The notes beneath the pieces were generated by a model. It was not told the origin of the DNA. It did not search any database and was given only the letters and a program-made list of their open reading frames with translations. This document shows positions 21,552 through 35,451 of a stretch of DNA of 36,102 nt, one piece after another (the first letter of the stretch is position 1; each line of letters begins with the position of its first letter). This DNA comes from Calothrix sp. HK-06 (GTDB lineage Bacteria > Cyanobacteriota > Cyanobacteriia > Cyanobacteriales > Nostocaceae), in contig NZ_MRCD01000089.1 of assembly GCF_001904745.1 (NCBI RefSeq), positions 1 through 36,102 on the forward strand. Direction: 5' to 3'. The position numbers were made by a program, and so were the translations under genes.

Positions 21552-23333
21552 ATGGGTTATTACATCGCTCCGAAATTTCTAGATAAACTTGCCGTACACA
21601 TTACTAAAAATTTCTTAAATCTACCTGCTGTGCGCGTTCCGTTGATTTTGGGTATTCACGGACGTAAGGGTGAAGGAAAATCGTTCCAATGCGAATTAGT
21701 TTTTGAAAAAATGGGTATTGAATTCACCCTGATATCTGGGGGTGAGTTAGAAAGTCCTGATGCAGGCGACCCTGCACGCTTGATTCGGTTACGTTATCGA
21801 GAAACTGCTGAGTTAACTAAAGTACGCGGTAAGATGTGCGTACTAATGATTAATGATTTGGATGCAGGCGCCGGACGTTTTGATGAAGGGACACAGTACA
21901 CGGTTAATACGCAGTTGGTCAATGCGACATTAATGAATATTGCGGATAATCCGACAGATGTACAACTTCCAGGTAGTTATGACTCAACGCCATTACCTAG
22001 AATACCAATTATTGTTACGGGTAATGATTTCTCTACGCTGTATGCGCCTTTAGTACGCGATGGACGCATGGAGAAGTTCTATTGGGAACCTGACCGTGAT
22101 GACAAAGTTGGCATTGTCGGGGGAATTTATGAGCCTGATGGATTATCGCGTCGTGAAATTGAACAGTTTGTTGATACCTTTATTAATCAGTCTGTTGACT
22201 TTTTCAGCGCGTTACGTTCTCGCATTTACGACGAACAAATCCGCCACTTTATTCATGAAATTGGTATAGAGAAGGTATCGCAGCGCGTAGTTAACAGTGT
22301 TGAAGGTCCGCCACAATTTAAAAAACCAAACTTTAAATTACCGTACCTGATTGAAATGGGTAATCTGATGGTTGGAGAACAACAGCGCGTACAAAATTCT
22401 AAATTAGTAGAAGAATATAATCGTGGATTGTTTTCGCGTAAAGCTGTATCTAGGGTAGAAGCATTACCAGCGCCAATTTACAGTAATGATGTGGGTGTTG
22501 CAGAAGTTGTAACAACAACAGTTAAAACACCATCTGTAGCACCAGATAGGTCGGCGCCGATTATGGCACCAGTTGTAGCTGGTGTTGGAATGCAAGCTAA
22601 TTCGTCGCCGAGTTTGCCAGCTGGTACACCATACAAACAACCTGCTGCAACGGCACTTGGCACACCATACAAACAACATGTTGTAGAGGTAGTTGAGGAA
22701 CCAACTAATCACGCGCCGATTATGGCGCCAGTTGTAGCTGGTGTTGGAATGCTAAGTAAGTCGGCGCCTAAACTGCCAGCAGGCACACCATACAAACAAC
22801 CTGCTGCAACGGCACTTGGCACACCATACAAACAACATGTTGTAGAGGTAGTTGAGGAACCAACTAATCACGCGCCGATTATGGCGCCAGTTGTAGCTGG
22901 TGTTGGAATGCTAGCTAAGTCGGCGCCTAAACTGCCAGTTGGCACACCATATCATTCACCTTCTTCTGCACCATCTTTAAACCCAGTTACAACATCCGTT
23001 ATGAATAACGGAGAATACTACAAGCAATACGCAGAAAATACACAGCTAGCACCCAGCACTCATCTCACCTTAGAGACTCAAGAACTAGTTCGCGAAATCT
23101 TGTCTAAGGGTTACAAAATAGGTATTGAACACGTTGACGAACGCCGTTTTAAAATGGGTTCATGGCAAAGCTGTACAGTAGGAGAAATTAGCGCTGCCTC
23201 CGATTTAGTTTCTGCTATCGAGTCATCTTTGGGTGACTTCAGCAATGAATATATTCGATTAGTTGCTATCGACCCAAAAAATAGGCGCCGAGTTATGGAG
23301 ACAATTATTCAACGTCCAAACGGGGCTAAGTAG
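21552..23333 (+). CDS. rca: Rubisco activase with RbcS-like (SSUL) domain and expanded repeat linker
   Basis: A 593-residue protein. The AAA+ core (about 1-300) has Walker A GRKGEGKS (37-44), Walker B-like VLMINDLDAGAGRF (97-110), and the IVTGNDFSTLYAPLVRDGRM sensor/arginine-finger region. The C-terminal 90 residues (from about 504) form an RbcS-like domain (ILSKGYKIGIEHVDERRF, GSWQSC) like those of CcmM and cyanobacterial activases. Cyanobacterial Rca removes inhibitory sugar phosphates from Rubisco and is recruited to carboxysomes through this domain. The protein is much longer than usual relatives (roughly 415-440) because the linker holds a 53-residue tandem repeat (GTPYKQ and APIMAPVVAGVGM motifs). 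No rbc genes are adjacent. Confidence 0.92.
   Translation: MGYYIAPKFLDKLAVHITKNFLNLPAVRVPLILGIHGRKGEGKSFQCELVFEKMGIEFTLISGGELESPDAGDPARLIRLRYRETAELTKVRGKMCVLMINDLDAGAGRFDEGTQYTVNTQLVNATLMNIADNPTDVQLPGSYDSTPLPRIPIIVTGNDFSTLYAPLVRDGRMEKFYWEPDRDDKVGIVGGIYEPDGLSRREIEQFVDTFINQSVDFFSALRSRIYDEQIRHFIHEIGIEKVSQRVVNSVEGPPQFKKPNFKLPYLIEMGNLMVGEQQRVQNSKLVEEYNRGLFSRKAVSRVEALPAPIYSNDVGVAEVVTTTVKTPSVAPDRSAPIMAPVVAGVGMQANSSPSLPAGTPYKQPAATALGTPYKQHVVEVVEEPTNHAPIMAPVVAGVGMLSKSAPKLPAGTPYKQPAATALGTPYKQHVVEVVEEPTNHAPIMAPVVAGVGMLAKSAPKLPVGTPYHSPSSAPSLNPVTTSVMNNGEYYKQYAENTQLAPSTHLTLETQELVREILSKGYKIGIEHVDERRFKMGSWQSCTVGEISAASDLVSAIESSLGDFSNEYIRLVAIDPKNRRRVMETIIQRPNGAK
22554..22950 (+). repeat. 159-bp in-frame tandem repeat inside rca
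   Basis: Units start at 22554, 22713 and 22872 with GCGCCGATTATGGC; the period is exactly 159 bp, 53 codons. Two full units and a partial third are present. The second halves of units 1 and 2 (from ACACCATACAAACAACCTGC to CAACTAATCAC) appear identical, while the first halves differ at several sites. This points to recent amplification or gene conversion. Confidence 0.92.
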
Positions 23334-26509: not shown

Positions 26510-26537
26510 GTAGAGACGTGATTAATCACGTCTCTAC
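26510..26537. repeat. Perfect 28-bp palindrome between convergent genes
   Basis: Arms GTAGAGACGTGATT (26510-26523) and AATCACGTCTCTAC (26524-26537). It begins 4 bp after the queF stop and contains the TAG stop of the minus-strand LRV gene. It is a likely bidirectional terminator and a member of a dispersed repeat family (9848, 29400). Confidence 0.85.
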
Positions 26538-29206
26538 GCATTCGCTTTTGCTGCTGCACGCACGATACGATTTGCGTCTTCTGTTAGGAGTTTGCGGATG
26601 TGTTGCGGTGTGTTGGGGTTTGTTGCTACTGCGTATCTTTCTAACCAGGATGATGAGCGATGGTGTTTTACTAGTAGGTCGCTTGGCGCCTGATGGTGTA
26701 GTAATATAAAAAAGTTTGAGAGCGATGGGTAAGAGGTCGTACTAATAAATTTTTCTATATATGGTTGGCATTGCTCTGGGTAATGTTGAATTAGAGATTT
26801 TACTGCTGCAAGGTGTGTTAGGTTATTTGATTTGGGGTTATTGGCAAGCATTTCTAGTACGTTTGCTGGAGTGTTGGAGTTTTTGGCAACTGCTAATTTT
26901 ACAGAGATATGTTCGTCTGTTGCTAACTTTTCTAACAAAGTGACGGGAGCGTTGCTTTTACTGCGATTTAATTTGTCTTGCTTTTCAGAAGTGTCAAAGA
27001 CAATCATTGCTGAATTTGCGTTAAGTGCTACAGCTTCTTTAATTGTTACCCATTGACTTTGTGCTTGTTCTATGAGTAGTTGACTTGATGCATTCAGATT
27101 TTGCACTGCTTGCCATTGCTGTAAAAACTCGGTGTGTGGATGATTTTTTGTTTCGAGTAACCCAACGAGTGCTGAAGATCGCACATCTTGGTTTTTATCC
27201 TGCAAGAGTTTTTCTTGCACGGATGGTGGTAGATTAGGATTTCGCGCTACTAACCGACGCAAGCGTACTGATTGACTTGATGCAAATTTTGATGCGATAG
27301 ATTCGGGTATATTTGGATGTCGTGCTAAGGCAATTTGTATTTCAAGTGTGTTGATTGTGGCACATTTTTCTAGAAGATAGGTAGGGATATCTGAGTGTGT
27401 CGTCATTTGCCGACATATATTTTGAATCGATAGTAAATATACTTGGTAGCTATCGCTTGGCGCCAGTTCAAGTAAAATTTCGATAGGGGTGTTAGGATTT
27501 GCGGCAATTGAAATATTGTCTTGGCAAGTTGAAGAATTGGAGTATAGGGTAAGTGACTTTGTTTGACGGAATATTATTGCCCTAGCTTTTACCCAATCGA
27601 CTTGATCTTTTTCTAACTGCGTTAACACATCATCAGGGGTGTTAGGATTTTCGGCAACTGCACACCGAACGTTATTATCTTCATCGGTTGCCAATTTTCT
27701 CAAAATCTCAATTGGGGTTTTAAGATTGTACGCTACATGTTGACGCACCATATATTCGCCATCGTTAGCTAACTGTGCTAGTAAGGTTTCTGATGCTAAG
27801 GAGCTTGCTGCAACATTATTACGAACGTAAAAATCTTTATCGTTTGCCAAATACGTTAGTAGTTCAATTGAAGTGTTGGGATTTTTAATTACTTCTACAC
27901 GTACATAACAATCTGCATCCCGTGCAAGTAGTTCTAAAATTGCTGGTGTCGCATTAGGGTGTTTGGCAATATCTTGACGTTGGTAGCATTTGTAATTGTT
28001 CAACATTCTTACTAAAAGCCATGCTGGAGTTATGGGGTTACGAACGACTGCATTACAAACTCCTAAGCGTTTATCTTCTATAAGTATTTCCAGCACTTCT
28101 GTAGGAACGCTTTTGTTACCAGCAACTGCCGCACGAACTTTCCACGATTTGTTATAGGCAAGTTTTACTAATATTTCGCGAGGAGTGTTTGGGTGAGATG
28201 CTACACCCGTTCGCGTATACTCCCAGTCACGTTTTACAATTTCGCTTAAAGTGGCGCCAGTAGTATCAGGATTTTGAATTGCGGCTTCGTAGTCGTAAAA
28301 TAATTTATAGATAGCATTTGGAGTACTGGGATTTTGAAAAACAGTTTGACGTACCCACGCATCATCATCACCCGCAAGCTGTTCTAGAAGATGAACGGGA
28401 GTATTTAAATTATTGGCAATTGCTACACGCATTTTTTTAGTCGCTGTTTTTGGTTTTAACAGCGCTTCGAGAATTTCTGCGGGAGTATCAGGGTTACGGG
28501 CTATTTGTACTAACGTATTACGATGTAATCCCATCAAGAAAGCTTGGGGAATAATGCCGAGTTGCCACAATCTATATTCAGAAACTTCATCGTGAAGGAT
28601 ATTATCTTTGACTAACTGGTGTTTTTGAACTACCGCAAAAGCTGCTTCTTGCCATCCAGCTTTCATTTCCCCTATCCAGTTGACATGTAACTTGGCGACA
28701 TTTGGCACTTGTGAAGTTAACCAGTTACTACCTGCTTCGTATATCAACTTACATAATTCATCTCTAGTTAGTTTAGGATTCATTGCCGCAGCAAACATTG
28801 TTTTCGGGCGCCTATAACTTAATGCCCACTGTAAATATGTATCTGGGATAACTTTTAATTTAAGTAAACTAGCTTGAGTATCTTCGGGTAATTCTTGAAA
28901 TAAATTCGGGTTTTCTAATAACAACAGTGAGAATACTGGATTTTCGAGCAACTCGTATGGAAATTCTATCCCTAATTGAAACAATATCTCTGTGGGAGTG
29001 TTGGGGTTATTAGCTACAGCTTTGCGCGTGTCATAATCTTTACTGGTGCTGAGTGAAAATAAAATTTCTGGAGTAGTGCATATGTTTGCAGCTATAACGC
29101 GCGTGAGTTCAGGGGCCATAGACGCTAACTCTTCCAAGCTTATATGTGATGTAGTTTCGCTAGCTGCTTCATGTACGAGTGCAAGCAAATTGGAAGAGTT
29201 TAGCAT
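26534..29206 (-). CDS. Large leucine-rich repeat variant (LRV) solenoid protein
   Basis: An 890-residue protein made mainly of LRV units of about 24 residues with the pattern NPNTPxxxLxxLAxDxxxxVRxAVA, more than 20 in number. The N-terminal 110 residues contain a block shared with the other LRV genes here (GIEFPYELLENPVFSLLLLE). LRV arrays form curved alpha/3-10 solenoids that bind proteins. Unlike the Azotobacter LRV protein, no N-terminal cysteine cluster for an iron-sulfur centre is seen. No signal peptide. A TTG at 29212 could start it, but the ATG at 29206 is preferred. Its stop lies within the palindrome shared with queF. Probable role: scaffold or recognition partner of the nearby MoxR/vWA pair, by inference from location. 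Confidence 0.82.
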   Translation of the reverse strand: MLNSSNLLALVHEAASETTSHISLEELASMAPELTRVIAANICTTPEILFSLSTSKDYDTRKAVANNPNTPTEILFQLGIEFPYELLENPVFSLLLLENPNLFQELPEDTQASLLKLKVIPDTYLQWALSYRRPKTMFAAAMNPKLTRDELCKLIYEAGSNWLTSQVPNVAKLHVNWIGEMKAGWQEAAFAVVQKHQLVKDNILHDEVSEYRLWQLGIIPQAFLMGLHRNTLVQIARNPDTPAEILEALLKPKTATKKMRVAIANNLNTPVHLLEQLAGDDDAWVRQTVFQNPSTPNAIYKLFYDYEAAIQNPDTTGATLSEIVKRDWEYTRTGVASHPNTPREILVKLAYNKSWKVRAAVAGNKSVPTEVLEILIEDKRLGVCNAVVRNPITPAWLLVRMLNNYKCYQRQDIAKHPNATPAILELLARDADCYVRVEVIKNPNTSIELLTYLANDKDFYVRNNVAASSLASETLLAQLANDGEYMVRQHVAYNLKTPIEILRKLATDEDNNVRCAVAENPNTPDDVLTQLEKDQVDWVKARAIIFRQTKSLTLYSNSSTCQDNISIAANPNTPIEILLELAPSDSYQVYLLSIQNICRQMTTHSDIPTYLLEKCATINTLEIQIALARHPNIPESIASKFASSQSVRLRRLVARNPNLPPSVQEKLLQDKNQDVRSSALVGLLETKNHPHTEFLQQWQAVQNLNASSQLLIEQAQSQWVTIKEAVALNANSAMIVFDTSEKQDKLNRSKSNAPVTLLEKLATDEHISVKLAVAKNSNTPANVLEMLANNPKSNNLTHLAAVKSLIQHYPEQCQPYIEKFISTTSYPSLSNFFILLHHQAPSDLLVKHHRSSSWLERYAVATNPNTPQHIRKLLTEDANRIVRAAAKANA

Positions 29207-29399
29207 AAACAAAAATCAAAAATAATATATAACAAAACCTGTGACTTTAAGTTGTCACATATTCATTCAAATCACCTTTGTATTTTTACGGAAATATAAT
29301 ATGTTGATAAATATCAAGAATATTAATCTCCGCAATATTACGACAAGTTATAAATAAATTAAGTTCCCAACGTCATTAGTTGGTTATATAATTATCAAT

Positions 29400-29427
29400 G
29401 TAGAGACTAAACATGTTTAGTCTCTAC
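29400..29427. repeat. Perfect 28-bp palindrome, GTAGAGACTAAACA arms
   Basis: GTAGAGACTAAACA (29400-29413) pairs with TGTTTAGTCTCTAC (29414-29427). The outer eight bases match the 26510 palindrome while the centre differs, so only the ends and the self-complementarity are conserved. Confidence 0.85.
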
Positions 29428-29440
29428 AGGGTGTTGGCTA

Positions 29441-29719
29441 TTATTTAAAATGAGAGTTAAAATGTTTCAGAATATTCTCTGATAATTGTATATAGTACAT
29501 GTCATCTTTATTTGGCGATATATTAATTAATGACAGTAGTCTCTGTGCCCATTTAAAACAAATAAAGCTGTCTTTACCTTTAATTAATAATTTTAAAATC
29601 TCTATAGTCACATTTGGATGAGTAACAACATAACGACATACATAAAACTTGCCATCAGTAGCTATATTTTTGAGTATATAGCTAGGTGTCGAAGGATGAT
29701 TGGAACTATCTAGAGTCAT
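29441..29719 (-). CDS. Short LRV-repeat protein or LRV gene fragment
   Basis: A 92-residue frame with two or three degenerate LRV units (SNHPSTPSYILKNIATDGKF, VVTHPNVTIEILKLLIKGKD) and a diverged tail. It is far shorter than the neighbouring LRV genes, lacks the shared N-terminal block, and has no clear ribosome site before the ATG at 29719. It may be a remnant of a larger gene or a small independent protein. It lies 88 bp after the 331-residue LRV gene. Confidence 0.5.
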   Translation of the reverse strand: MTLDSSNHPSTPSYILKNIATDGKFYVCRYVVTHPNVTIEILKLLIKGKDSFICFKWAQRLLSLINISPNKDDMYYIQLSENILKHFNSHFK

Positions 29720-29806
29720 ATAACACACCAATTCGACTTGATTATTTTAAATTTTTCTCATGAAAACCAAAAGATATTCTAATAAATTTTAATTGCTAAA
29801 TAAATA

Positions 29807-30802
29807 TTAAAATTGATTTTCGTCATAATCAAAGTAGTAATAGTCAGAACGTTCTTTAAGTGTCCAAGCGGCTATAAAACAAATCGTTTCGTTTTCATCT
29901 TGAGCAAGTTTTGTCAAAGTTTTACGACTAGATTTAGAATTTTTAGCTACGGCAGTACGCACGCAAATTTCTTTATCTTGTGCTAGCTGCATTAATAAGC
30001 TTTGGGGTGTGTTGGAATTGCACGCTACAGCAATACGTATATTTGTGTCTTGATGATTAACTGCCCATTCTAAAAATGATTCGGGTAGTTTATATTCTTG
30101 AATTATACTAGTCTCATGTTTAATTAACTTTTCAAGTAATTTGTTAACTAAATGTTGCGGAGTATTAGGATTTTTTGCGGCGCCAAACCGTACTATACCG
30201 TTACTATCTTGAATTAATTTTTCTAGTACATTGCTAGGTGTTTTAGTGTGTGTTGCTACTTTACTACGAATTTCGTAGCATTTGTCGGTTGCTAACTTTA
30301 ATAGCGCACATTTGGGAGTATTTGGATTTTCTGCAACGGCAAGACGAACTTTTTTACTTTTGTCTTCTGCTAGCTTTTGTAAAGTATTAGTGTTGGTGCG
30401 ATGATTTTCGGCAACGTTACCGCGTACATCTATACTTGTATCTTTTGCAAGCTGCTCTAAAAATGATGGATGCGTGTTTTCATTGCTTGCGATAGTTTTA
30501 CGAATTCCTTCATCTGAACAATTTACTGCCCATTCAATAAATAAGGGTGGTAATGCATCTTCGTTGAATATATATGGGTTATTTTGATATAAGTATCTGA
30601 AAAAATCAGGGTTTTCGAGCAAAATTAACTCAATTACAGGATTATTTAGAACTTGATGCGGAAATTCGATAAATAATTCTATAAGTAAATCTGGTGGTGT
30701 ATTCGGGTTGCTAGCAACGAGTTTACGAATTGCTCCGTTATAAGTGTCCGCTAGTTTTCTAAGTTCCTCAGAAGAGGTAGTAGCATTAATAGCTTGTTTC
30801 AT
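29807..30802 (-). CDS. LRV solenoid protein
   Basis: A 331-residue protein with about nine LRV units (NPNTPKCALLKLATDK, KNPNTPQHLVNKLLEK and others) after an N-terminal block. That block contains FIEFPHQVLNNPVIELILLE, shared with the 890-residue LRV protein and with the pseudogene at 33205-34906. The unit beginning PESFLEWAVNHQD repeats an earlier PPLFIEWAVNCSD unit, suggesting internal duplication of a larger module. The C-terminus ends in a Tyr/Asp-rich tail (YYYFDYDENQF). No catalytic domain. It lies about 200 bp downstream of the vWA/peptidase gene on the same strand, separated by an AGAAACC-type hairpin. Confidence 0.82.
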   Translation of the reverse strand: MKQAINATTSSEELRKLADTYNGAIRKLVASNPNTPPDLLIELFIEFPHQVLNNPVIELILLENPDFFRYLYQNNPYIFNEDALPPLFIEWAVNCSDEGIRKTIASNENTHPSFLEQLAKDTSIDVRGNVAENHRTNTNTLQKLAEDKSKKVRLAVAENPNTPKCALLKLATDKCYEIRSKVATHTKTPSNVLEKLIQDSNGIVRFGAAKNPNTPQHLVNKLLEKLIKHETSIIQEYKLPESFLEWAVNHQDTNIRIAVACNSNTPQSLLMQLAQDKEICVRTAVAKNSKSSRKTLTKLAQDENETICFIAAWTLKERSDYYYFDYDENQF

Positions 30803-30933
30803 TTTGATGAGTAATAATTAAGGGTTTGCTTGGTCTTACCCTTTATTATTCCCAAGAATTTTAATAATAATTAAACTCCCGACAAGTTTTACAAAGTCGA
30901 GAATATAATTTCATCAAATTTTCATCAACCCAA

Positions 30934-30999
30934 AGAAACTGGGTTTCTAGGCAAAATCGTCGTTTTTATTACAGATATGTATAAAGAAACCCGGTTTCT
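30934..30999. repeat. AGAAACC-type element after the vWA/peptidase gene
   Basis: Arms AGAAACTGGGTTTCT (30934-30948) and AGAAACCCGGTTTCT (30985-30999). The core holds AAATCGTCGTTTTTATTACA, similar to the core at 4640-4670. It ends 2 bp from the stop of the minus-strand gene at 31002, so it probably acts as its terminator. Confidence 0.8.
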
Positions 31000-31001
31000 A
31001 A

Positions 31002-32168
31002 CTAAGCTGACAATAAACGAACGCTTTCGCCAAAGGGAAATTGTTCTAAATTCATTCCACCTGGTGTGACTACCCATAATACTGGTAGTTGAGGCGCCTC
31101 AGTAGGGAAACAACCATATCCATCAGTTAGATAGACGCATACCGCTTGTGCCTGTCCGTCCCAACGTTCGGATACTTTGTCAAAAAATGGTATAAATGAC
31201 GTACCTCCTCCTCCCTGCGGTTTTGGAAAAGCACTGTCAGGATTAAGTTCGTAGGGGCCATAAGCATCAGCATCGACGTAATATAATTCGCACTTGAGGT
31301 GAGGGTAAGAGCGCAAGATACCACTAACTTCGCTTAAAAATAACTTCAGTTCTTGACCACCAATTGAACCACTAGTATCAATTGCAACGTAAACTATAAC
31401 AGACTCACCTTGTAGTGCTTCTAAATATAGTCCACGTCCAACAAACCTACGGTCAAAACCAGTAAAATCATTTGGTGTCTGAACTAAATAACGCCATAAA
31501 TACGAGCGCCAGTCTATTTGTGGTGTTGTAGCGTTCATTAATTCGCGCTCAATACCTGCGGGTATTGTGCCTTGTTTTGATGACCGAGCAATTACTGCTG
31601 CTTGTTGTAGCGCATTACGCCAATGTGCTTCTAGTGCTGCTTTACGCGCGCTAGACATACTATCGTTTTCGTCACCTTCTTCTGAACCTTCTCCTAAACC
31701 TTCAAGTAAATCACTTAGCCCATCACCACCAGCAGCTTCCCACATCTTCTTATACTTTTCTGCGTCTTTGGAAAGAATTTCGTATATTTCCTCAACGCTA
31801 AGGTGTTCTAACTTCTGGTCACGTAAACCACCTGCTGGTAGTTCAAAATAACCTTGCTGCATAATAATACCGTTAATAACAATGTCAGCAGCAAAGTTCC
31901 ATAATATAGCATCGCGCACACCTCGACGCGGTACATGGAGTAATGCAGCGTGCAATACCTCGTGTAGCAAGACTCCATCAAGTTGCGCTGGTGGTAAAGC
32001 CAGAAAAAATTCAGGATTGTAAAATATATCTTTACCGTCAGTTGCAGCAGTTTGATAATGGGGAGCATTAATAAAGCGCGCGAACAATGCTAAAGTGGCA
32101 AAAAACGGTGACTTAGTTCGCAACCGAATAAGTGAGGCGCTAATAAGTTTTTGAATGTCTTGTGTCAT
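31002..32168 (-). CDS. vWA-like protein with N-terminal HExxH metallopeptidase domain (DUF2201 type)
   Basis: A 388-residue cytoplasmic protein of the COG3864-like family. The N-terminal half has a zincin signature LLHEVLHAALLH with His69, Glu70, His73 and a further His78 (HExxHxxxxH). The middle is acidic and flexible (GLGEGSEEGDEND). The C-terminal half is a vWA-like domain with an apparent MIDAS start IDTSGSIGGQ and VYLTDGYG. Families like this are usually encoded beside MoxR AAA+ ATPases, as here: the MoxR gene is 12 bp upstream. Whether the zinc site is proteolytically active is not known. The two probably form an ATPase-driven remodelling or maturation complex. Confidence 0.88.
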   Translation of the reverse strand: MTQDIQKLISASLIRLRTKSPFFATLALFARFINAPHYQTAATDGKDIFYNPEFFLALPPAQLDGVLLHEVLHAALLHVPRRGVRDAILWNFAADIVINGIIMQQGYFELPAGGLRDQKLEHLSVEEIYEILSKDAEKYKKMWEAAGGDGLSDLLEGLGEGSEEGDENDSMSSARKAALEAHWRNALQQAAVIARSSKQGTIPAGIERELMNATTPQIDWRSYLWRYLVQTPNDFTGFDRRFVGRGLYLEALQGESVIVYVAIDTSGSIGGQELKLFLSEVSGILRSYPHLKCELYYVDADAYGPYELNPDSAFPKPQGGGGTSFIPFFDKVSERWDGQAQAVCVYLTDGYGCFPTEAPQLPVLWVVTPGGMNLEQFPFGESVRLLSA

Positions 32169-32180
32169 AAAATATAAGAT

Positions 32181-33191
32181 TTAGGACTTGCTCATGCCAA
32201 TTAACTGGTAATATTCCTGAATAAATTTCTGTAAATCGTTGTCTTCTTTAGCTAAAGTCGCAAAAACACCCATATGTCCTTTACTACGCATCATTGGTAG
32301 CAAGTCAGCTATGAAAAACTGTACCCACTCGGTTGTCGCTTTATTACTCAGCCATTTATAAGCGTTATACCCTTGTTTTGCATCTGCTGCGCGTACTGTT
32401 AAACCAATAGCTGTTGCATACCGTGCGCTTGGTTCTTTAGGAAAAGCTATTTTACTACCTTTACCTTCAAGAATAGGCGCCAAGCTTGGTAAAGTTTGGT
32501 AAACTTCCAAATAAGCCATAAATTCAGCAGTTGCACCCTTGCCAACAGCAGGTGAAGTATCAAGTTCGGCATAATGTAAATGACTTGCCATTTCCCAGGA
32601 ACGTGGAGTTGGGAAAGCTGGTTGCTGAGGGTCAATTTTGTGTAGCAGTGTAGAGCGGAACGACAGAAACGCAATAATCTGCTCGTGTATACCTTTTTCT
32701 AATGCGTAGGCTTTAAAGCTATCAAAATCTACTTCCACTTCCAAATGTAAAAATCTATTTGCTAACGGCGCCGGCATATCAAATACTGCTGCACGGTCTT
32801 CTTTACGGTTTCCAGCAGCCCAAATAAACCATCCTTCTGGTACCGTATAACTACCAACTCGACGGTCTAAAATTAATTGCTGTGCCACACCTTGCATAGC
32901 TGGAGGCGCCATATTTAGTTCATCCAGAAAAAAGATACCTTTACCATCACGAGGTAAAAATTCCGGTGGAAACCACTTAGAAATTCCATCTTCTGCAACA
33001 GGTAGTCCACGTAAATCAGTAGGCGCCAGTTGTGACAAACGCACATCAACAAAATCAATTTCGTGTTCTCGTGTAAGTTGCCCGACAATGCTAGATTTAC
33101 CAATACCTGGAGGGCCCCAAATCATGGTGCTGATTTGTAGATTTTTGGCAACCAAGCTATTTAAATATGTTTTGAGTTGGCTAGGGGTCAT
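32181..33191 (-). CDS. MoxR-type AAA+ ATPase
   Basis: A 336-residue AAA+ protein with Walker A GPPGIGKS (residues 26-33), Walker B GIFFLDE (85-91) and NMAPPAMQGVAQQLILDRRV (the following helix), a sensor-1-like WAAGNR, and the PAPLANRF arginine-finger region. MoxR ATPases act as chaperones that insert metals or remodel partner complexes together with vWA proteins. The next gene, 12 bp downstream, encodes such a partner. It begins 13 bp after the end of a decayed LRV gene, so an intact LRV protein was probably once the first product of this operon. Confidence 0.92.
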   Translation of the reverse strand: MTPSQLKTYLNSLVAKNLQISTMIWGPPGIGKSSIVGQLTREHEIDFVDVRLSQLAPTDLRGLPVAEDGISKWFPPEFLPRDGKGIFFLDELNMAPPAMQGVAQQLILDRRVGSYTVPEGWFIWAAGNRKEDRAAVFDMPAPLANRFLHLEVEVDFDSFKAYALEKGIHEQIIAFLSFRSTLLHKIDPQQPAFPTPRSWEMASHLHYAELDTSPAVGKGATAEFMAYLEVYQTLPSLAPILEGKGSKIAFPKEPSARYATAIGLTVRAADAKQGYNAYKWLSNKATTEWVQFFIADLLPMMRSKGHMGVFATLAKEDNDLQKFIQEYYQLIGMSKS

Positions 33192-33204
33192 ATGTTAATT
33201 TCAG

Positions 33205-34906
33205 TTAGATATTGGGTTTTTTAAGAGCCTGAAGTGCTGCAATGCGAATTTCTAAGTTTTTATCCTTAGCCAACTCGGTTAAAATTTCAACGGGTGTATC
33301 AGGGTGTTGGGCAGCATAAAGACGGTCGGGCTCAATGTAACTTTTAGCGAATGTTGTCATTAATGTCTGCCGCATTTCTACTGAAGTATTTGGATGTGCA
33401 AGCAACTGCCAATTAAATCCTGTCAAACCTGCTAAATACTCCAACACCGTCTTCTGGTGCATTCTTCTTTTGAGCCACAAATGTACAACATTGCTAATCT
33501 TTTACTAATATTTCTAAAACATTACTAAGAGTTTTAATATTGCTCGCTACTGCCCGTCTAACTTCAACTTCCGCGTCAAAAGATAATTTCTCCAGTACAG
33601 AGTGTGGTGTACCAGGATTGCAAGCTACAGAAGAGCGAACGTTTGGTAATACATCGTGTGCTAAAACTTCGAGCATATCCACAAGGAGACTCGGATTTTG
33701 AGCTATCCACACACGCAGTTGCGGTTCTTTTTGCACCCACATTCTTAAAATATCTATAGGTGTATGGGGATGCTTGGCAACGTACTTGCGAACAGACAAC
33801 CGCTCATCCATTGCTAGGCGCCATAATACTTGCTGTAATATTTCACGATTCGCATTTGGATGCTGTGCAACTAATAAATCGTGCGCGCGAGTCTCAGCTA
33901 TATATTTTAGAACAGATGCGGGGGTACTGGGGTTTGCTGCAATAGCTTCTAAAACCTCATGCTGATTATTTTGAGCTAATTGGTAAAGTAAATTTTCCCG
34001 CACGCTCGGATTTGCAGCAACAAAACAACACAGTTCTGGTTCGGAAACTGCACTAACTAACAAAGCTTGCGGCGTATTTGGGTGCCTTGCTACCATTTGA
34101 CGCACTCGTAGTGTACCATGACTTGCTAATTTACATAGTACTTTAGCACTAAATTAGGTATTTTGTGCCAGTGAGTTCATCATATGTAACCTATAATCGA
34201 GTGCCAACTCAATAATTAAGTCGATAGGTAAATCAGCACGCGCAGCTATTGCGAGTTTTACTTTTTTATCACCTTCTTTAAGTAAATTTTTTATAACTTC
34301 TAAAGGAGTGGTTGAGTTTTTAGCAAGTTTATAATGAATTTGTTGCCGAAAAGTCTAATTTAGTTCAGGCGCAAGAGCAAGTGTTTTTAAAATACTGGTA
34401 GAATATTTATGATACTTTGCGAGATATAAACGCACAGCAATAGTGCCATGTTCAGCAAGTATAAGTAAAATTTATTCTGTAACATCTTGACGCTGGGCAA
34501 TAATCATTCCCAAATTAGAGTCTTTACAACGTGCCATCATCTCCAAAGCAGATAATGGAGTTTGATAGTGCTTTGCCACCACACGCAACACTTCGGGGTT
34601 GGAATGCATTGCGGCGCCAGACAAGAAAAAATCAGCCACATTTGGTTGTCGTAAAAGATTAATTAAAGTCCAATAAGGTATTTATACAACAAAATTCGGA
34701 TTTTCTAGTATTAATAGCGACAACACAGGATTACTAAAAAAACATTCGGAAATTCATCCGCCAAACTTATTAATACATCAATAGGTGTATTTGGGTTAAC
34801 TATTACAGCCTTACGAACAGCAACATCATCATCAACAGCCAACTGCCGTAGAACGACTGTGGCACCGTCACATCAATCGCTCGTTCCTCTGGAGTTTGAT
34901 GCATCG
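33205..34906 (-). pseudogene. LRV-repeat pseudogene with four in-frame stops and frameshifts
   Basis: The minus strand from an ATG near 34906 encodes the same N-terminal LRV block as the paralogues (VNPNTPIDVLISLADEFPNV, then NPVLSLLILENPNF). Lesions: a frame change near 34850; a lost base in the A-run at about 34736-34742; stop codons at 34682-34684 (TAA), 34472-34474 (TAA), 34355-34357 (TAG) and 34154-34156 (TAA), all in one register; then a 203-codon open stretch (33494-34105) ending in TAG; and a +1 shift into a final 91-codon segment ending at 33205. The LRV pattern continues throughout, so these are pieces of one former gene of roughly 560 codons. The 203-codon piece might still be expressed. 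Confidence 0.85.
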
Positions 34907-35163: not shown

Positions 35164-35451
35164 TCAATCCTCCAAATCTAAGTCACGAATTCTTGCATCT
35201 AAAATATGCGCCATTAATCCTACTGATTCTAGTTCTCGTACTCCTGGAACAGTTTTTCCATAGTTTGGATGAGCTAAGTAGTCTAGCCAAAATGAGATGT
35301 ATTTGATGAGTGACCAACCAAAAATGTTTTTTTCTTTGATTAATGTCGCTTGTTCTGGAAGCATTTCAAGCGTCGAAAGCTTTAAAATTAGTTCTTGCCA
35401 GTTTGATTGTCTTAAATCAAACACGAAAATATTTTCAAAATCTACTACCAT
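35164..35451 (-). CDS. Hypothetical protein, 95 residues
   Basis: A short soluble protein with no membrane segment, Cys or recognised motif. It has several aromatic stretches (SLIKYISFWLDYLAHPNYGK) and a charged end (DARIRDLDLED). It lies immediately upstream of the PIN-domain remnant, with the PIN ribosome site overlapping its 3' end, so the two were translationally coupled. An antitoxin or partner role is conceivable from this arrangement, but there is no sequence support such as a DNA-binding fold. Confidence 0.6.
   Translation of the reverse strand: MVVDFENIFVFDLRQSNWQELILKLSTLEMLPEQATLIKEKNIFGWSLIKYISFWLDYLAHPNYGKTVPGVRELESVGLMAHILDARIRDLDLED

Follow-up and report, generated by a model that had tools for sequence, protein, structure and literature searches.

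Why do genes for LRV-repeat solenoid proteins surround a gene pair for a MoxR-type AAA+ ATPase and a DUF2201 protein on the minus strand of a 36,102-nucleotide stretch of DNA from the cyanobacterium Calothrix sp. HK-06 (contig NZ_MRCD01000089.1, in full length called the window here)? The DUF2201 protein carries an N-terminal HExxH domain (H69, E70, H73) and a C-terminal vWA domain, and we refer to it as the vWA protein and, together with MoxR, as the pair. The original prediction, made from this DNA alone, had linked LRV genes with a common N-terminal block (N-block) to the pair, with coincidence as the other outcome should such genes and pairs mostly turn up apart. We followed this link across genomes, where it holds in three phyla, and then considered which role the solenoid proteins might have.

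N-block LRV genes and MoxR occur in the same genomes

The association of N-block LRV genes with the MoxR-vWA pair is real and not a coincidence, since the N-block occurs almost solely in genomes that carry this MoxR subfamily. A profile of the N-block (A3, 42 residues, made from 26 LRV genes) and a MoxR profile (14 sequences) were run on the same genomes, with cut-offs of E <= 1e-60 for MoxR and of 1e-3 (relatives), 1e-7 (Cyanobacteria) or 1e-5 (Deinococcota, Chloroflexota and single genomes) for the N-block; for some genomes the profile-search candidates were scored in part. Among 60 relatives of the window's genome, 13 possessed both, one MoxR only, one the block only and 45 neither (Fisher p 4e-11; 3.5e-7 when collapsed to 54 genera). 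The corresponding counts were 7, 2, 1 and 234 for 244 Cyanobacteria, where the MoxR match of both MoxR-only genomes is interrupted or partial and the single block-only genome (G174) applies at E < 1e-10, a line set after the hits were known; if the weaker hits of G056, G170 and G201 are included, the block-only genomes number four (Fisher p 1.2e-9). For 111 Deinococcota we obtained 15, 4, 0 and 92, with G325, G334, G387 and G397 harboring MoxR without the N-block, and for 301 Chloroflexota 15, 4, 1 and 281, two of the four MoxR-only genomes (those of loci L122 and L126) being of the pentapeptide type described below. When the three phyla are pooled, 37 of 656 genomes have both, 10 MoxR alone, 2 the block alone (5 at the looser cut-off) and 607 neither.

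These genome-wide tests rule out a coincidental association. Generic LRV content is ruled out as an explanation as well, since four of the 60 relatives (G009, G015, G024 and G047) have PF01816 matches with neither the N-block nor this MoxR. That the association reflects hitch-hiking inside a few lineages is very improbable: kinship does inflate the counts, but the link recurs in three phyla sampled by whole genomes and at single loci of Armatimonadota and Verrucomicrobiota, which contradicts this explanation.

LRV genes are frequent neighbors of the pair

The gene neighborhood was read at 80 vWA loci, the best 80 of 107, using an LRV unit model made from 62 pattern-picked repeat units and a pentapeptide model made from one protein (L078); MoxR was undetected at 11 of these loci, some of which are on short contigs. 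At least one LRV gene is present in the fetched stretch of 45 of the 80 loci, and in 40 of these 45 the nearest one is on the same strand. Five of the eight Deinococcota loci are contiguous in the order MoxR-LRV-vWA (L105, L107, L111, L112 and L118), and one locus each of Armatimonadota (L092) and Verrucomicrobiota (L119) likewise has an LRV gene. Distances measured from the N-block are in line with this: 45 of the 93 block hits of the relatives (E < 1e-9) lie within 10 kb of MoxR, compared to 0.21 expected under even placement, as do 14 of 23 in Chloroflexota, while all 16 in Deinococcota lie within 2.6 kb and all seven cyanobacterial genomes with both have a block less than 4 kb from MoxR. 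All 93 hits belong to MoxR-carrying genomes; the block of G056, a genome without this MoxR, falls just outside the cut-off with an E-value of 2.3e-9. In G026 an LRV gene adjoins MoxR, yet the only matched vWA gene sits elsewhere.

Several points weigh against so close a tie. The Fisher p-values, down to 9e-49 for the three phyla pooled, are overstated because genomes within a phylum are kin, and the N-block profile was built solely from pair-adjacent LRV genes, so that it may favor such genes. For the same reason the presence of an N-block LRV gene at all 45 of the 45 LRV-bearing loci is partly circular. In the relatives, 48 of the 93 block hits are over 10 kb away from MoxR or on a contig other than its own. 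Of the nine N-block hits in a Polyangiaceae genome (L124), none was found at the pair, whose fetched vWA locus of 8.3 kb likewise showed no LRV gene, and the pair of G059 has, within the stretch fetched, neither an LRV nor a pentapeptide gene, the three N-block genes of this genome being elsewhere. Furthermore, 22 of the 80 vWA loci show neither solenoid by these rules, some of them on short contigs. From the dispersed blocks, L124 and G059 it follows that an LRV gene next to the pair is common, not obligatory. Twenty further stretches were fetched, one of which surrounds MoxR in G026 and the other 19 dispersed N-block sites; among the matches listed, the dispersed N-block LRV genes are mostly solo amid unrelated neighbors.

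Some neighbors merit mention in their own right. One LRV protein encoded near a vWA gene has an N-terminal WGR domain (L065:826-2799), and at L144:5297-11877 a DUF5682 gene lies near a dispersed N-block LRV gene of G004; DUF5682 is a family met in other MoxR-vWA operons. Five Anaerolineae loci (L100, L104, L117, L123 and L125) have in common a short gene close to vWA, which is on the opposite strand in the three that were read (L100, L123 and L125) and gave no Pfam match in the two that were scanned (L100 and L125; 138 and 140 aa).

A pentapeptide-repeat protein is found in the same place

Clustering of the neighbors revealed a second solenoid, a pentapeptide-repeat family present at 17 of 81 loci at a median of 34.5 bp from vWA. 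Under a stricter rule, 16 of the 80 vWA loci possess a pentapeptide gene less than 1 kb away, on the same strand in 11 of the 16. Since 45 of the 80 loci have LRV, 16 pentapeptide and only three both, the solenoid partner looks exchangeable. Three of the four pentapeptide-type genomes searched (those of L078, L122 and L126) lack the N-block, the fourth (L087, Phormidium) has two N-blocks which are located at a second pair (L115), and in the MoxR-only relative G011 a pentapeptide gene lies 44 bp from the vWA gene. When mapped on a vWA tree of 81 rows, the presence of LRV by itself requires 13 changes and the full set of four partner states 20, counts that short contigs inflate on a tree with many weak branches.

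The two solenoids also occur side by side, as LRV genes lie beside pentapeptide proteins at four Nostoc/Acaryochloris loci (L059, L064, L067 and L074) and at a dispersed G004 locus (L141), and at L064 and L141, the two loci that were scanned, WD40 repeats are found on the pentapeptide protein as well. At the latter locus (L141:2067-6297) the LRV gene is followed by the pentapeptide and WD40 gene on the same strand, with no MoxR in the 12-kb stretch.

The MoxR and DUF2201 proteins have intact motifs

MoxR matches AAA_5 and AAA above the Pfam cut-off, and its residues G26, P28, G29, I30, G31, K32 and S33 as well as L89, D90 and E91 are invariant in 14 sequences, so that the Walker motifs are intact. 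At E <= 0.001, the MoxR profile finds only midasins among solved structures, the best at 1e-10. Both Pfam domains of the DUF2201 family, PF13203 and PF09967, are above the cut-off in the vWA protein (142.1 and 67.7 bits). Its HExxH residues and those of the vWA metal ion-dependent adhesion site (MIDAS; D264, S266, S268, T323 and D349) show no variation among 37 aligned sequences of several phyla, the window's included, and the same is true of H78 and E126/E127. In the predicted structure (mean predicted local distance difference test score, pLDDT, of 80) HExxH sits in a helix and residues 255-388, approximately, adopt a vWA fold. A fold search with this model gave good coverage at residues 247-388 and barely any in the N-terminal half, with the MIDAS domains of Rea1/MDN1 among the structural matches. 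With regard to a putative zinc metallopeptidase, for which a third ligand and a zincin fold would be expected besides HExxH, sequence matches to M48 and MJ1213 were not significant (E 0.27 and 0.68), no significant sequence relative of the vWA protein was found among solved structures, and a Pfam scan detected DUF2201_N and DUF2201 alone, with no effector domain or beta-propeller.

The search with the window's vWA protein gave a single match in the window's own genome. Two relatives (G005 and G028) possess a second, distant DUF2201-MoxR pair (L046 and L047) with vWA proteins of 594 and 603 aa and no LRV genes within the fetched stretch. The G005 pair sits between the hydrogenase-maturation genes HypE and HypA, while the G028 pair has different neighbors. 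This bears on the possibility that the pair matures a metal enzyme in the manner of NorQ-NorD or CoxD-CoxE, with LRV holding the target. Several MoxR-vWA pairs are described as serving metal insertion in the main text of PMC7159879 and in NorQD abstracts, and the hyp-flanked G005 pair keeps this explanation alive for the wider family. However, the hyp neighborhood was read in one genome, and among the families recurring beside LRV loci no metal enzyme was seen by eye. We consider metal-enzyme maturation quite unlikely for the LRV-bearing pairs.

LRV families combine a conserved head with a variable tail

The number of block hits per block-positive genome ranges from 1 to 20. In Deinococcota, 14 of 15 block-positive genomes have exactly one N-block, while G039 possesses seven tandem LRV genes with 6-12 repeats each by the unit model, two of them 99.6% identical. 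When this near-identical pair is set aside, the G039 proteins share on average 84.6% identity over alignment columns 1-72 and 58.8% beyond. For the wider comparison we used genes from the fetched stretches (10 of G002, 8 of G004, 10 of G003, 6 of G028, 7 of G039 and 2 of the window) with block matches of more than 30 and tails of more than 100 residues. N-block identity exceeded tail identity in 153 of 154 paralogue pairs in the five genomes and in the one pair of the window, a contrast that is partly built in because the block was picked for conservation; in an ungapped control favoring the tail, the head was still more alike in 252 of 308 ordered pairs. The cyanobacterial LRV genes group into families in which the head is conserved and the length of the tail varies. 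G047 is rich in LRV in a different way: it has 46 PF01816 matches but lacks both the N-block and this MoxR subfamily.

Two LRV genes of the window, here called LRV-B and LRV-A, lie downstream of the pair in all seven same-genus genomes, the window included, some of which have extra LRV genes in between. A third one upstream, LRV-C, reads through 566-567 aa without interruption in three of these genomes (G005, G004 and G001), is a shorter gene of 325 aa in G003, is split in G002 and G006 (two of the six same-genus relatives, judged by reading frames) and is broken in the window. Its longest piece there is 91% identical to the intact 566-aa relative at L048 and has five in-frame stops, the match being scattered across three frames. 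The suggestion that LRV genes have multiplied and partly decayed is therefore borne out in part, by the block counts, the tandem array of G039 and the broken LRV-C.

Within the genus, the median omega was 0.03 for MoxR, 0.08 for vWA, 0.13 for LRV-B and 0.17 for LRV-A (21 pairs each), and 0.21 for LRV-C (three pairs of intact genes). The LRV genes hence evolve faster than the MoxR/vWA core, yet are constrained; positive selection on them was not found in these pairwise averages. An arms-race signature, as might go with the diversifying recognition system that had been expected, is not supported in view of these values, the fixed presence of LRV-A and LRV-B in the genus and the single copy in most block-positive Deinococcota.

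The same observations bear on the idea that we are looking at a conflict (defense) system of the kind that Kaur et al. 2020 describe as MoxR-vWA ternary systems, with solenoids that would sense invaders. The patchy spread fits, with MoxR of this subfamily in 9 of the 244 Cyanobacteria, and so do the many hosts that are filamentous, judged from organism names, and the expansion and decay of LRV genes with their conserved heads and variable tails; moreover, according to the main text of PMC7159879, HEAT, pentapeptide and propeller repeats occupy the effector position of ternary systems. On the other hand, the seven same-genus genomes keep LRV-A and LRV-B in place under an omega of 0.13-0.17, 14 of the 15 Deinococcota genomes have a single copy, Pfam detected no effector domain in the vWA protein, and no defense-like family was seen by eye among the neighbor families common to at least 5 of 81 loci. 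PADLOC gave no match for the five main proteins, which does not decide a conflict role. Taken together, a defense function appears unlikely.

A possible three-part machine

A rod-shaped repeat protein, encoded beside MoxR and vWA in several phyla, appears to be the third part of this system. Judged from sequence, we give an even chance to a three-part MoxR-vWA machine in which the solenoid is the adaptor, its head docking and its tail holding clients. An adaptor fits best because of the operon place, the conserved head and the other solenoid found in the same place. MoxR would form the motor ring of an ATP-driven protein-remodelling machine, and the vWA protein would be its co-chaperone, gripping a client peptide via the MIDAS site, with an HExxH domain that may be able to cut this peptide. 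For known MoxR-vWA pairs, the main text of PMC7159879 describes a client peptide gripped by the vWA domain and a shape change driven by the MoxR ring. The N-block of the LRV solenoid may dock on motor or co-chaperone, with clients held along the variable tail. We had considered the glutamate of the LENP motif in the N-block as a MIDAS ligand and dropped this candidate, as the A3 rows from Meiothermus and from Ktedonobacteria, two each, lack it.

Under the adaptor reading, the single LRV gene of 14 of the 15 block-positive Deinococcota genomes would encode a dedicated third subunit, the many LRV genes of Calothrix-like cyanobacteria would provide interchangeable adaptors, some encoded far off and acting in trans, and pentapeptide-repeat proteins would stand in for LRV in other lineages. 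Purifying selection on LRV-A and LRV-B counts against this reading, as it is more in keeping with a fixed subunit than with a set of recognition proteins that changes. The further step, that a Calothrix-like repertoire with a conserved docking head and a tail varying in the number and sequence of its repeats feeds one MoxR-vWA-HExxH machine which remodels or cuts the caught proteins, and that it grew from a single-adaptor chaperone kept in Meiothermus, is rather doubtful. If true, the LRV repertoire would be a bacterial analogue of repeat-based recognition repertoires.

The same data also fit solenoids that are clients and not adaptors, which counts against the three-part machine. MoxR-vWA would then fold, assemble or disassemble LRV and pentapeptide scaffolds that act elsewhere. 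Known pairs act on specific clients, as stated in the main text of PMC7159879, the many LRV genes that are dispersed and mostly solo are placed as those of clients can be, and the LRV genes beside pentapeptide proteins at five loci, two with WD40 repeats, are compatible with such scaffolds. Two unrelated solenoid folds in one operon place and a conserved LRV head rather suggest a docking part, although this argument is weak. We regard the client role as rather unlikely.

Layout of the locus in the window

The window (contig C232) belongs to a genome of 9.99 Mb, and its vWA protein is 98% identical to the homologue of Calothrix sp. PCC 7103. From 26534 to 34904 on the minus strand, the order of transcription is LRV-C (broken), MoxR, the DUF2201 gene, LRV-B, a weak fragment and LRV-A (Table 1).

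Table 1. Features of the LRV-MoxR-vWA locus in the window
Feature	Position	Strand	Description and evidence
LRV-A	26534-29212	-	892-aa LRV solenoid protein; PF01816 E 6.6e-59
N-block of LRV-A	28886-29011	-	profile A3, E 2.0e-18
Possible LRV gene fragment	29441-29731	-	96 aa, TTG start; weak support
LRV-B	29807-30802	-	331-aa LRV solenoid; PF01816 E 1.9e-30
N-block of LRV-B	30590-30712	-	profile A3, E 9.0e-18
DUF2201 protein (HExxH + vWA)	31002-32168	-	388 aa; DUF2201_N and DUF2201 above cut-off
MoxR-type AAA+ ATPase	32181-33191	-	336 aa; AAA_5 above cut-off; Walker A GPPGIGKSS
LRV-C, broken gene	about 33205-34904	-	several stops and frame changes, compared to intact relative in L048
N-block of LRV-C, two pieces	34676-34797	-	profile A3, E 6.8e-7 and 3.5e-6

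The original prediction had placed four LRV loci, three of them with a common N-block, on one strand around the pair. The arrangement is as described, with lengths that differ trivially from the 890, 92 and about 560 given, and the end of LRV-C does lie 13 bp upstream of the MoxR start. PF01816 repeats above the Pfam cut-off identify LRV-A, LRV-B and both LRV-C pieces as LRV loci, and the A3 profile matches the N-block of all three. The LRV nature of the fourth, the fragment, is weakly supported because a Pfam scan gave no match and only phmmer relates it to LRV-A (E 8e-7); none of the six LRV proteins tried from related genomes matches it at 55% identity or above. No NCBIfam model was above cut-off for LRV-A, LRV-B, vWA, MoxR or the longer LRV-C piece. 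LRV-A and the LRV protein encoded at a Meiothermus locus are colinear (26% identity across 958 alignment columns), and LRV-A matches PDB entry 1lrv in sequence (E 8e-5). The predicted structure of LRV-B is an all-helical solenoid (mean pLDDT 91) with PP2A scaffold subunits and 1lrv (E 3.5e-6) as best fold matches.

Further upstream of MoxR, a 95-aa frame at 35164-35451 on the minus strand resembles a truncated form of a gene at L049 that encodes 152 aa, and just downstream of it we noticed by eye what could be left of the gene that follows at L049 (L049:6292-6687, with PIN_12 below cut-off); on the upstream side of MoxR, genes other than LRV-C may therefore have decayed. Elsewhere in the window, 21552-23333 on the plus strand encodes a RuBisCO activase with a C-terminal RuBisCO-small-subunit-like domain, and between both parts lies a 159-bp tandem repeat (22554-22951, 2.5 copies, 93% matches).

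Comparison with known systems

The link between LRV, MoxR and vWA is apparently undescribed, and we rate it as a new variant within the MoxR-vWA machines, not as a category of its own. Among the literature matches listed, no paper brought LRV together with MoxR or vWA, as far as their records go, and DUF2201 family names are scarce in the literature searched, with four papers, none of them recognizable by title and start of the abstract as a paper on function. We know of no established role of LRV proteins. The DUF2201 MoxR-vWA family gains a defined third partner with a recognizable N-terminal signature, and for structural studies the Meiothermus operon, with its single copy, would be a simple system.

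Among characterized relatives, NorQ-NorD, RavA-ViaA and CbbQ-CbbO likewise combine a MoxR-type motor with a vWA partner, whereas here a member of the DUF2201 family is the vWA partner; to our knowledge, none of the three has a solenoid third gene. Midasin (Rea1/Mdn1) is a sequence relative of the MoxR profile and a structural match of the vWA model, but is one giant eukaryotic chain for ribosome assembly. The protein of PDB entry 1lrv belongs to the same LRV repeat family as LRV-A and LRV-B and carries an iron-sulphur N-terminal part, a domain that Pfam does not list in the LRV proteins studied here. The ternary systems of Kaur et al. 2020 (PMC7159879) are built alike, from a MoxR ATPase, a vWA co-chaperone and a further component, and according to the main text, in which LRV, 'leucine rich repeat' and DUF2201 do not occur, HEAT, pentapeptide and propeller repeat domains are among the added parts. 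In the system described here, the vWA protein differs from theirs in that it has an HExxH domain and neither an effector domain of the VMAP type nor a beta-propeller.

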